61,356 bases of DNA. Source: a virus. Positions 52,732 to 55,933 of the stretch are shown in pieces. Position numbers and translations under genes: made by a program. The notes below the pieces were generated by a model. It saw nothing but the letters and a program-made list of their open reading frames with translations, was not told the DNA's origin and searched no databases. How positions within the stretch are numbered: the stretch's first letter is position 1; every line of letters begins with the position of its first letter. The DNA lies in the IMG/VR virus record IMGVR_UViG_3300028829_003908, positions 1 to 61,356 of that record. One strand, written 5' to 3'.

Positions 52732-53487
52732 TTACGATTTGAACAATTCGTCAAAAGCATCACCTGTATTACTTACTTTGGCAGATGAAAGTTCTGAAGT
52801 AGAAACTTCTTTTTCTTTAGTTTCTGTTTCAGTAGAATCCTCATTTGGATTCAACCATTCATTCAGCACGTCTGTAAGGTCATCATATGCTAACTCTTGA
52901 TAGATTTCCTTGATGTCTTGTTGGGTTTTAACCAATTCAAGTACATCTGGTTCATCAGAAATCGATGTTTGATTAGGTTTGACACGAATGTTAGTTTTTG
53001 GAAAACTCGCACCACTTTCTTCAGCTGTGATAAATTCCACAACAACATCACGACCATTTACTGGGTCGGTGATATCACCATAATCAGGGTCTGCGATTAT
53101 AGAAAGAAGTTCTTGATAAACTGTCTTTCCAAATCCCCAAAATTTCACTCCTTGTTTCTCTTCTCCTCTAACTACTACTGGTGCAAAAGTTCTCATCTTT
53201 GCTTCAAGTTTCCTTGATAGCTGATAATCTTCTTTACTACCACTTCCTTTTAGTTTCTGAGCAAACTCCTCAATTGGGTCTGGTCTACCGAAAGAAATTG
53301 GTGAAAGATATGAACGATTGTTCAGATTGTAGTGGAAAAATAATTCAATGAAAGGATTATCTTTATTGAATGCATAAGGAACGATTCTTATTTGAGTTTT
53401 ACCTGGTTGTGGTTTCCAAAGACTGGAAGTACGATTGTTTGTGGTTTGTAACTGATTGAGTCGTTTTTTAATTGCGTTTAAGTCCAT
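52732..53487 (-). CDS. 32: Single-stranded DNA-binding protein, T4 gp32-like (251 aa)
   Basis: RIVPYAFNKDNPFIELFFHYNL and VKFWGFGKTVYQELL match the gp32 OB fold, and the C-terminus is acidic and Ser-rich before DAFDELFKS, like the gp32 protein-interaction tail. The zinc-finger Cys residues of T4 gp32 are missing: the matching segment reads SPISFGRPDPIEEF. The ATACTTATT motif lies 66 bases upstream. Confidence 0.85.
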   Translation of the reverse strand: MDLNAIKKRLNQLQTTNNRTSSLWKPQPGKTQIRIVPYAFNKDNPFIELFFHYNLNNRSYLSPISFGRPDPIEEFAQKLKGSGSKEDYQLSRKLEAKMRTFAPVVVRGEEKQGVKFWGFGKTVYQELLSIIADPDYGDITDPVNGRDVVVEFITAEESGASFPKTNIRVKPNQTSISDEPDVLELVKTQQDIKEIYQELAYDDLTDVLNEWLNPNEDSTETETKEKEVSTSELSSAKVSNTGDAFDELFKS

Positions 53488-53552
53488 TACTTAATCTCCT
53501 ATTTGTTTATGTTTATTTTGTATTTATTAGTGGTATCATTTATCGATACAAT

Positions 53553-53561
53553 AATAAGTAT
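53553..53561 (-). promoter_or_regulatory. ATACTTATT motif, candidate promoter element
   Basis: Minus strand GTTATACTTATTATTGTATC, between the terminator of the structured RNA and the gp32 start. Confidence 0.4.
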
Positions 53562-53600
53562 AACCTTGATTGCTAAAAATGTAATCTTTTTTCATTATTT

Positions 53601-53674
53601 GTAAAAAAAAAATGGCCAGCTAGTTTTTTAAGTTTATTTATAAGTGGAAACTAAAAATCATGTGGCCATTTTTT
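53601..53674 (-). terminator. Large terminator hairpin with 12-bp stem
   Basis: Minus strand AAAAAATGGCCA (53663-53674) pairs with TGGCCATTTTTT (53607-53618), which continues into a run of ten T. An inner AGTTT/AAACT pair closes the loop further. It ends the structured RNA upstream and isolates gp32. On the plus strand it would also work weakly. Confidence 0.75.
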
Positions 53675-54119
53675 ATATTATCTAAATTTGGAAATCTTGG
53701 GGATGTGAGATTAACGATTACTCACAACTTGAAGCTCTGATTTTTTCTACCTTATACTTAACATCTTTCAGTTATGAAAGTGATTCTCAAGATGGTTAAT
53801 CTCATCGAATCGAGTACAACCTCTATGCCAATACCTTAACTCTCAGAGTTTAGTTTGTTCAGTCATAAAGTGGGATTTCAGTATTACCCTTACCCACAAT
53901 AAGGTCAACAGAATCGTTTCTGTTTTTTTCTTCAAGTACTTCTGATTATTGATGTCTCAACTACCGAAATGATTTACACCTAAGTAGGTTCACCACGAAC
54001 TAATCATAGATTGCCTTATGAGCTTCCGAAGTATACTCATTTTTCAGCCAATCCCATACAGAGCTAATTACTCTCTGTACTTTCCGATTTCTCAATTTTC
54101 AAAAAACTCTATATCATCA
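53601..54119 (-). ncRNA. Candidate large structured non-coding RNA (about 0.5 kb)
   Basis: No credible gene exists between gp32 and the exported-protein cluster. On the minus strand many stems can form: TACAGAG/CTCTGTA (54057-54079), nested GATTG/CAATC with ATGAG/CTCAT (54009-54053), GTTC/GAAC (53988-54000), TTGA/TCAA (53949-53960), AACAGAA/TTCTGTT with a four-base loop (53907-53924), CCTTA/TAAGG (53888-53904), AACTC/GAGTT (53838-53850), CTTTCA/TGAAAG (53765-53780) and TGTGAG/CTCACA (53704-53726). A 12-base long-range pairing (53702-53715 with 53795-53806) competes with or caps some. A promoter and a terminator bound it. It does not resemble tmRNA or RNase P to my eye; GOLLD/ROOL-type or a new class are open. 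Confidence 0.6.
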
Positions 54120-54125
54120 TTTGAT

Positions 54126-54155
54126 ATAATAATATATATATATATAAATTCTCAA
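54126..54155 (-). promoter_or_regulatory. Promoter of the structured RNA
   Basis: Minus strand TTGAGA, 18 AT-rich bases, TATTAT. Start would fall near 54119, just before the first hairpin. The TTTTGAGAATT block is shared with the gp45 promoter. Confidence 0.55.
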
Positions 54156-54417: not shown

Positions 54418-54820
54418 TGGATATTCCCCTATGGTCAAAATCTGTACCAACCACTATACCATATTCACCAGCACCAATTCTATCTGTCCACTCTGTACGA
54501 TATAGTTTCCATACATAAGTTTCTATTCGTTCTCTACCATCACCATATGGACTCAATGATATCGGTTGTTTATGTACTATTTTACCATACTTATCAAACA
54601 TATATAATTTAGTTTTTGTTCTATCTACCAAATATCTAACCTTAACAACATCACCACCTCTATCAGTATCTAACCACGCCTGTAGTGGAAAATCATAGAA
54701 TGTTTTCATTGTAGGTTTGTCATCGATATAAGTAATATCAGGTTGAAATAAAACAAACCCCACCACAATCATAATAGCTGCAGTGAGGCCTAATTCTATC
54801 GTGTTTACTGATTTACTCAT
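54398..54820 (-). CDS. Membrane-anchored protein with FlgD-like Ig fold, possible minor pilin
   Basis: The N-terminus SVNTIELGLTAAIMIVVGFVLF is a membrane helix with Glu at the +5 position if cut after Ser4, as in prepilins, though the usual Gly is missing. The rest (KLYMFDKYGKIVHK, GAGEYGIVVGTD) resembles the FlgD/secretion-associated Ig-like pattern. It overlaps the prepilin gene by eight bases. Confidence 0.5.
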   Translation of the reverse strand: MSKSVNTIELGLTAAIMIVVGFVLFQPDITYIDDKPTMKTFYDFPLQAWLDTDRGGDVVKVRYLVDRTKTKLYMFDKYGKIVHKQPISLSPYGDGRERIETYVWKLYRTEWTDRIGAGEYGIVVGTDFDHRGISIEIDIP

Positions 54821-55253
54821 TGGTGTATAGAGTAGGTAGTTCAGCTAATTCAAATGTTAATGAATCATATGTGTAGTAATAGATTTCATCATTTCTTCTT
54901 TGATGAAATATTGCTGGTTCACCAACTGCATCTACACTAAACTGCCACTCATTATCTTCATCGGGTATCCCCTCGAACAATGTAACTGATAGATTACGAC
55001 TTCTTCCAATTACTGTCAATGGATTATAAGGCCATGCTTCAAGTCCGAACGCAGTCAATCTTTCAGATGATTCTTGTTCACACCCCGCCCACACCATATC
55101 GACAAATGTTTTTTCTGCTGTTTCTTCTGCATTATCAACTGTCTCTTGATATCTCGGTAATGCCACTGCTGCTAAGATTCCTAATATGATTGTAACCATT
55201 ACTAATTCAATCAATGTGAATCCTTTACTTGTGTTTTTGATTATGTTCTTCAT
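54813..55253 (-). CDS. Type IV prepilin-like protein (146 aa)
   Basis: KGFTLIELVMVTIILGILAAVALPRY is a textbook class III signal: cleavage after Gly11, N-methyl Phe12, Glu at +5 and a long hydrophobic helix. The globular part has Trp- and Tyr-rich strands and one Cys. It could assemble into a pilus or a type II secretion pseudopilus using the host prepilin peptidase. No peptidase or assembly ATPase is in the window. Confidence 0.88.
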   Translation of the reverse strand: MKNIIKNTSKGFTLIELVMVTIILGILAAVALPRYQETVDNAEETAEKTFVDMVWAGCEQESSERLTAFGLEAWPYNPLTVIGRSRNLSVTLFEGIPDEDNEWQFSVDAVGEPAIFHQRRNDEIYYYTYDSLTFELAELPTLYTNE

Positions 55254-55285: not shown

Positions 55286-55933
55286 TTAAGGTACTAAAGT
55301 TTTGTGTAGTTTAGATGGATTTTCAGTATCTATTACTACGATTACTGGTGCTTGTGCAGATGTACCACTTCCACTACCAGGTATTACTAAATAAGCATAT
55401 GAACCATCCTGAAATGGTGATTGCATACCTTTGTTACCAAAGTCATTCTTGAAATCAAGAGCACCAATTTCTGAATTACCATCGAATCCAACTGATGTTT
55501 CTAAACTCATCCAATCACCTTGAAGTGCATCATCATCATCACTTGTTGGTGAGAATACATATACGAACTCACCTAACTCTGAATCATAAGATACTTTACT
55601 ATCAAGGATAGTTTCAACATAAGCCTCAAGAGTTTCATCAGTAGAAGTTCCCTCAGATAAACCGATACCACCTACAGCGACATCATATTTTTCTTGGCCT
55701 GGGAATCTACCTTTACCCTCTTCAGATAATGTTTGGTTATAATAATTGTTTGCTACAGTCAAGATTTTATCTATGTTTGCCATAGTTTTCTTTTCTTTAG
55801 CACCTGCTCCAACCTGTCCAAATTTTGGTGCAGCTGTTGTTGCGAGAGTTGCCATCATTGCTGTAGTTACTGCGAATTCAGCAAGAGAGTTTCCTCTCCT
55901 ACTCTTTAATTTTTTAATAAGGCCTGTGAACAT
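55286..55933 (-). CDS. Prepilin-like protein with G|NSLAEF signal (215 aa)
   Basis: RRGNSLAEFAVTTAMMATLATTAAPKFGQVG has Gly14 before Asn, Glu at +5 and a hydrophobic helix, a less usual prepilin signal. An acidic globular domain follows (SPTSDDDDALQGDW, SYAYLVIPGSGSG). An AGGAG lies upstream. It is the first gene of the cluster after the terminator at 56082. Confidence 0.7.
   Translation of the reverse strand: MFTGLIKKLKSRRGNSLAEFAVTTAMMATLATTAAPKFGQVGAGAKEKKTMANIDKILTVANNYYNQTLSEEGKGRFPGQEKYDVAVGGIGLSEGTSTDETLEAYVETILDSKVSYDSELGEFVYVFSPTSDDDDALQGDWMSLETSVGFDGNSEIGALDFKNDFGNKGMQSPFQDGSYAYLVIPGSGSGTSAQAPVIVVIDTENPSKLHKTLVP

Follow-up and report, generated by a model that had tools for sequence, protein, structure and literature searches.

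The closest described relative of the RNA reported here is manA RNA (RF01745), which Weinberg et al. (2010; PMC2864571) proposed as a cis-regulatory candidate with a single domain. The accessible text of the manA literature treats it throughout as a single cis-regulatory candidate and mentions neither a double form nor a terminator, nor does it take a location between tRNAs to indicate a free RNA; supplements may hold an earlier remark on these points. No ligand is reported in the literature searched, in its accessible parts, and since 2010 manA has remained an orphan among riboswitch candidates. GOLLD and ROOL are large pseudoknotted phage RNAs whose function is likewise unassigned (PMC12286853), and canonical manA resembles them in that it too can occur within tRNA arrays. 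Two domain copies in a row are found in tandem riboswitches, such as the glycine riboswitch and the tandem glnA RNAs (PMC2864571). Finally, a structured RNA upstream of gp32 is present in phage T4, where gp32 binds a small pseudoknot in its own leader, inside the gp32 mRNA and 67 nt before the start codon, in autogenous control (PMC3014915).

The locus studied here lies in IMGVR_UViG_3300028829_003908, a 61-kb fragment of an uncultivated virus, a marine phage with T4-type replication genes; the whole fragment of 61,356 nt was analysed and is called the window. Beside the DNA-replication gene gp32 we find a structured RNA whose best explanation, with a probability of roughly two in three, is a free-standing non-coding RNA gene of ~520 nt that has a double manA structure and acts in trans.

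A non-coding region upstream of gp32

The ~550 nt located 5' of gp32 (53601-54155) contain no credible ORF, and the longest open stretch in 82 homologues does not exceed that of shuffled sequences, in line with the gene-free gap described in an earlier reading of the sequence alone. On the minus strand the region folds with -127.5 kcal/mol (z -3.7), better than 100 of 100 shuffles, while the plus strand of the same gap gives z -2.7. Most of the minus-strand hairpins proposed in that sequence-only reading are backed by the covariation described below. The features of the locus, all on the minus strand, are as follows.

54126..54155, minus: promoter-like region of the RNA gene, TTGAGA - 18 nt - TATTAT (consensus scan)
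54110..54136, minus: likely 5'-terminal hairpin of the transcript (folding in homologues), the inner part at ~54126-54110 being conserved
53868..54079, minus: domain 1, manA-like, below the Rfam cut-off (manA covariance model)
53700..53898, minus: domain 2, manA RNA (RF01745), full model (Rfam search)
53870..53897, minus: hairpin common to both domains (overlap of the model matches; helix 99.2% paired)
54051..54055 (GGGAU) with 53704-53700 (AUCCC), minus: closing helix of the entire molecule (50 homologues, 100% paired)
53899..53904 (CCUUAU) with 53755-53750 (AUAAGG), minus: bridge helix enclosing domain 2, 96.0% paired
53914..53917 (ACGA) with 53717-53714 (UCGU), minus: loop-loop pseudoknot between the domains, 98.5% paired
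53843..53848 (CUCUGA) with 53740-53735 (UCAGAG), minus: second pseudoknot, 100% paired
53705..53725, minus: terminal hairpin of the double domain, 100% paired (pair 53723-53707, E 5e-4)
53603..53674, minus: intrinsic terminator with a long apical part that carries the nearly invariant AUUUUUAGUUUCCAC (homologues, covariation)
53540..53600, minus: separate gp32 promoter-like region, TTACATTTT .. TATACTTATTATTGTATC (relatives)
52732..53487, minus: gp32, single-stranded DNA-binding protein (PF08804, 50.3 bits; PHROG 1192), a neighbour outside the RNA

Two prepilin-like genes also adjoin the RNA gene (54813-55253 and 55286-55933, minus strand; PF07963 N-terminal methylation motif, PHROG pilin), and similar genes are carried by the relative L207.

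Homologues and covariation

A gp32 query yielded 80 loci, about 40 of which have a homologous gap that is 70-99% identical. In the remaining loci just ~98 nt separates the upstream ORF from gp32, and these sister phages, which lack the whole RNA element, keep a gp32 promoter-like element. Two DNA patterns extended the set, so that a core match was present at 164 loci; 148 of them were full length and 82 distinct. Nearly all full-length double copies lie directly upstream of gp32, a proportion to be read in the light of one pattern scan, the source of many of them, having been seeded from gp32 neighbours. A blastn search with the gap in 50,697 phage records returned no real homologue, so that all copies of the double form known here come from metagenomic viruses; as an exact pattern, the double-form motif occurred in 0 of 84,980 cellular species.

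Covariation was assessed with a test that follows the principle of R-scape (G-test statistic, average-product correction). Its null alignments were generated by placing the inferred substitutions anew on a FastTree tree of the 82 sequences (mean identity 74%). Against this phylogeny-aware null, 14 pairs reached E<0.05, all 14 of them canonical and present as such in 96-100% of the sequences; relaxing the threshold to E<5 gave 45 pairs, 36 of them canonical. The comparison of homologues that had been proposed as a check thus came out in favour of a structured RNA.

We also evaluated the named structure of 89 pairs, counted on a MAFFT alignment of 50 sequences. Here 95.8% of the cells were paired, compared with 79.2% in shuffles and 36-44% in slid controls, and the observed pairing was reached by 0 of 500 shuffles. 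Changes on both sides of a pair were seen in 827 cells as opposed to 243 in shuffles, and the covariation score was 0.529, against 0.204 for shuffles and about 0.09 for slid controls. It should be underlined that the slid controls are somewhat flattering, because the structure was derived from the same sequences; the phylogeny-aware test is free of this weakness. A weak point of the structure is the helix 53922-53919/53912-53909, whose pairing is poor in many sequences.

These results bear directly on the notion of a decayed gene or an AT-rich spacer that folds by chance, the first of which the sequence-only reading had named as an example of a better explanation that would refute its own. It would agree with a region devoid of ORFs, but the covariation, the conserved core in 82 homologues and the shuffles that never attained the observed pairing refute it, and we regard it as having practically no chance of being right.

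Two manA-like domains

The Rfam search matched domain 2 to manA over model positions 1-192 with 58.8 bits (E 1.9e-12), above the gathering score of 55.2. Domain 1 matched model positions 1-184 with 32.9 bits (E 3.8e-7), below the gathering score. Whole-record searches of three relatives (G002, G009 and G014) gave two overlapping manA matches in each (for example 736-950 and 920-1119 in G014), and there the upstream domain covers the full model with 39-40 bits, still below the gathering score. Judged by these matches, domain 1 is to be regarded as a diverged homologue of manA. In the window the two matches overlap by ~31 nt, and the hairpin 53897-53870 serves domain 1 as its last hairpin and domain 2 as its first. 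The conserved secondary structure and the pseudoknot that define manA are present and the equivalent helices covary; the closing GGGAU/AUCCC helix is fully paired, yet spans both domains. The GACUGAA..UAAGG element, the GUGGUG-type hairpin and the terminal hairpin of manA as published (PMC2864571) are likewise found here, also in a marine phage. We consider the manA identity and the fold of this RNA almost certain.

The proposal of a large structured RNA gene adjoining gp32 was thus right in substance, passing both the Rfam search and the covariation test. The sequence-only reading could not match it to a family; the family is manA, and the unmatched 5' half is the second manA-like domain. GOLLD and ROOL, which had been mentioned as RNAs of this general nature, differ from it in sequence and structure, and their Rfam models gave no match in the window either at the gathering score or at E<=5. 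No match to wcaG, tRNA or tmRNA was obtained in the window.

Architecture of the double RNA

From the sequence comparisons, the RNA is predicted to be one interlocked molecule of ~520 nt in which the second manA-like domain is nested in the first. In the closing helix both sides change in 2 of 5 pairs. The bridge helix has both-side changes in 5 of 6 pairs, pair 53903-53751 giving E 1.07. All four pairs of the ACGA/UCGU pseudoknot change on both sides (pair 53917-53714, E 0.09); ACGA sits in a loop of domain 1 and its partner UCGU in the terminal hairpin loop. The CUCUGA of the second pseudoknot is in a hairpin loop of domain 2 (pair 53845-53738, E 0.001). An outermost helix is suggested by complementarity, since the predicted energy is -9.6 kcal/mol with its own partner, -8.1 with the partner from another phage and -4.5 with shuffled sequence.

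These closing and bridge helices and the two pseudoknots are the genuine long-range pairings. The likeliest candidate for the 12-base long-range pairing envisaged earlier, 53804-53795/53715-53706 (10 bp), is not conserved (73.4% paired compared with 72.8% in shuffles) and competes with two covarying helices.

Analogous to the kissing pair of the double form, CUGUA in a hairpin loop of the canonical manA consensus is complementary to UACAG in the terminal loop. As the alignment of canonical manA made here gave just 4 significant pairs, this loop-loop contact rests on complementarity and not on covariation. Whereas canonical manA has one domain (PMC2864571), the RNA in the window has two with a common hairpin, and the double form appears to split the kissing partners between them, domain 1 supplying the kissing hairpin and domain 2 its partner. 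Tandem riboswitches differ in another way, as the domains here interlock through the common hairpin and the inter-domain pairings.

Transcription signals and neighbouring genes

The hexamers TTGAGA-18-TATTAT, which had been taken as a promoter, are present, and the A/T-rich block around them, AYATTTTGNGATTTT..TATATATAT, is conserved in relatives. The consensus match itself is at chance level, however, as the scan found 15 sites with 15.1 expected. No genome-wide copies of the promoter motif were found in the window. The 5' hairpin has a mean energy of -5.1 kcal/mol in the 82 homologues compared with -2.0 in shuffles, and its sequences vary among phages.

The 12-pair terminator with a long T run, also noted earlier, lies at 53674-53603. 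A terminator hairpin with the apical AGUUUCCAC is present in 64 of the 81 homologues having enough sequence, and 63 of these 64 run into at least five T. The arms are wholly different among phages yet complementary, indicating compensatory replacement, and the arm pair 53665-53616 covaries (E 0.036). Since the terminator arms covary with each other only, no conserved antiterminator is seen in the homologues. Read-through is to be expected in some copies: in L164 no T run follows the hairpin, which directly precedes Hsp20, and L159, L219, L233 and L240 have no terminator ahead of the next gene. The apical part of the terminator (53653-53620, minus strand) is nearly invariant, AUUUUUAGUUUCCAC ... 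ACUUAAAAA, and is retained even in L164, which suggests that the apex may have a role beyond termination.

The gp32 promoter-like element is found in relatives having the RNA, and a related form precedes gp32 in RNA-less phages. Among the features of an independent gene, the terminator is conserved and covarying, and the candidate promoter draws its support from conservation of the upstream block only. The RNA probably forms a transcription unit of its own, and we infer that it is transcribed as a separate RNA.

Genes other than gp32 follow the double form in some relatives: Hsp20 (L164), a methyltransferase (L207) and hypothetical genes (L159). The 137-kb phage contig G024 (L288/L400) carries a diverged tandem manA whose two matches, at 34.9 and 31.4 bits, fall short of the gathering score. 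Its neighbours are an IMP-dehydrogenase-like gene on one side and a gene convergent to it on the other, and a terminator-like hairpin also lies in the intervening sequence; this copy cannot be a leader, because the flanking genes are convergent. In L197, L206 and L237 the double form is followed by more non-coding sequence. A second hairpin-rich non-coding stretch, ~100-360 nt past the double core, is common to L206 and L237 and partly shared by L197; it contains ..CAUCAGGAGUCC.CGAGAGGACAUACUGAGUAAGUCGC.. GGCAGGAGAAAACCAGAAA and has no Rfam match.

Function of the double form

According to the preferred explanation, the RNA would be made from its own upstream promoter, alongside the replication genes, and would end at its own intrinsic terminator, gp32 then being transcribed from a separate promoter. 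The two domains would share a hairpin, with GGGAU/AUCCC closing both, the bridge enclosing domain 2 and the domain 1 loop kissing the terminal loop. So folded, the RNA would act in trans during infection by binding a protein, a ribosome component or a ligand, and would not be a leader that switches gp32. Its manA identity, second domain, fold and conserved terminator, and its lack of coding content and of a conserved antiterminator, were all obtained by computation; trans action of the double form seems to us somewhat more probable than its opposite.

The alternative of a gp32 leader, in which the manA domains sense a ligand or gp32 and control terminator passage or gp32 translation, accords with the position directly upstream of gp32 in most phages, with the 20 of 99 canonical manA loci that precede gp32, and with the filing of manA as cis-regulatory by Rfam and by Weinberg et al. 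(PMC2864571). The first two of these leave room for some functional link of the RNA to gp32. The T4 leader offers a precedent, but it is small and within the gp32 mRNA (PMC3014915), whereas the RNA here has ~500 nt and terminates before the gp32 promoter-like element. This strong terminator followed by a promoter-like element, arms that covary with each other only, the convergent genes in G024 and the other downstream genes in some relatives make a leader unlikely. Somewhat less likely still is a stable RNA processed from longer phage transcripts, with no promoter of its own, as manA may be in tRNA arrays. Such processing would suit the two isolates in which manA fills the space between two tRNAs to within 0-2 nt and the third in which it abuts one tRNA, but the window has no tRNA, and both the upstream promoter-like block and the 5' hairpin are conserved here. 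An antisense role, in which the RNA would be an sRNA pairing with mRNAs of the phage or the host through its nearly invariant terminator loop (AUUUUUAGUUUCCAC), seems to us very improbable: the loop sequence is indeed kept while the surrounding arms change, but complementary sites are not in excess (4 found including itself, 4.0 expected, in the window only), and the manA domains would be left unexplained.

Compared with manA as published, which stands shortly before a start codon (PMC2864571), the double form has its own promoter-like region and terminator. It also differs from tandem riboswitches in ending in a terminator with no conserved antiterminator, followed by a separate promoter-like element. 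With this arrangement, and with the convergent genes flanking the L400 copy, the double form seems not to fit the filing of manA as 'cis-regulatory', although a few copies lack the terminator.

Canonical manA in other phages

In 18 phage isolate genomes searched, manA was found in six, with one copy each and at varying loci: between regA and purL in P-SSM2, after gp23 in P-HM1 and S-SSM5, abutting tRNA-Gly in S-SSM7, and between two tRNAs in ACG-2014f and S-CREM1. The S-CREM1 record annotates manA beside the tRNAs without comment. Treating wcaG, manA and the abiF hairpin of S-CREM1 as one big RNA was rejected, as tRNAs intervene. In many phages canonical manA may nonetheless be a leader, because most of 120 canonical IMG/VR loci shortly precede an ORF; in addition to the gp32 cases, 9 of 99 loci precede talC.

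More broadly, manA may be a phage gene for a non-coding RNA and not, or not mainly, a class of riboswitch. Such a gene would be single-copy, would have moved between loci and would be cut from tRNA arrays in some cyanophages; in the present phage group it would have become an interlocked RNA of two domains, with its own promoter and terminator, that acts in trans during infection. For this wider proposal we see the odds as even. Should manA prove to be a free RNA of phages, work on its function would better be directed at RNA partners, processing and infection phenotypes than at ligands and leaders. The covarying inter-domain contacts of the nested double form define a fold for which a construct can be made in one piece, and the presence or absence of the RNA among otherwise close phages provides natural comparisons.

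The canonical manA motif occurred in three marine cellular records only (L408, L409 and L410; the double-form scan covered 84,980 species), one of which is a 189-kb contig of a Prochlorococcus single-cell genome and perhaps phage DNA. The wcaG RNA, the other orphan cyanophage motif, forms a tandem pair in Prochlorococcus phage Syn1 (GU071105), at 167073-167166 and 167176-167284 with 45.1 and 40.9 bits, respectively.
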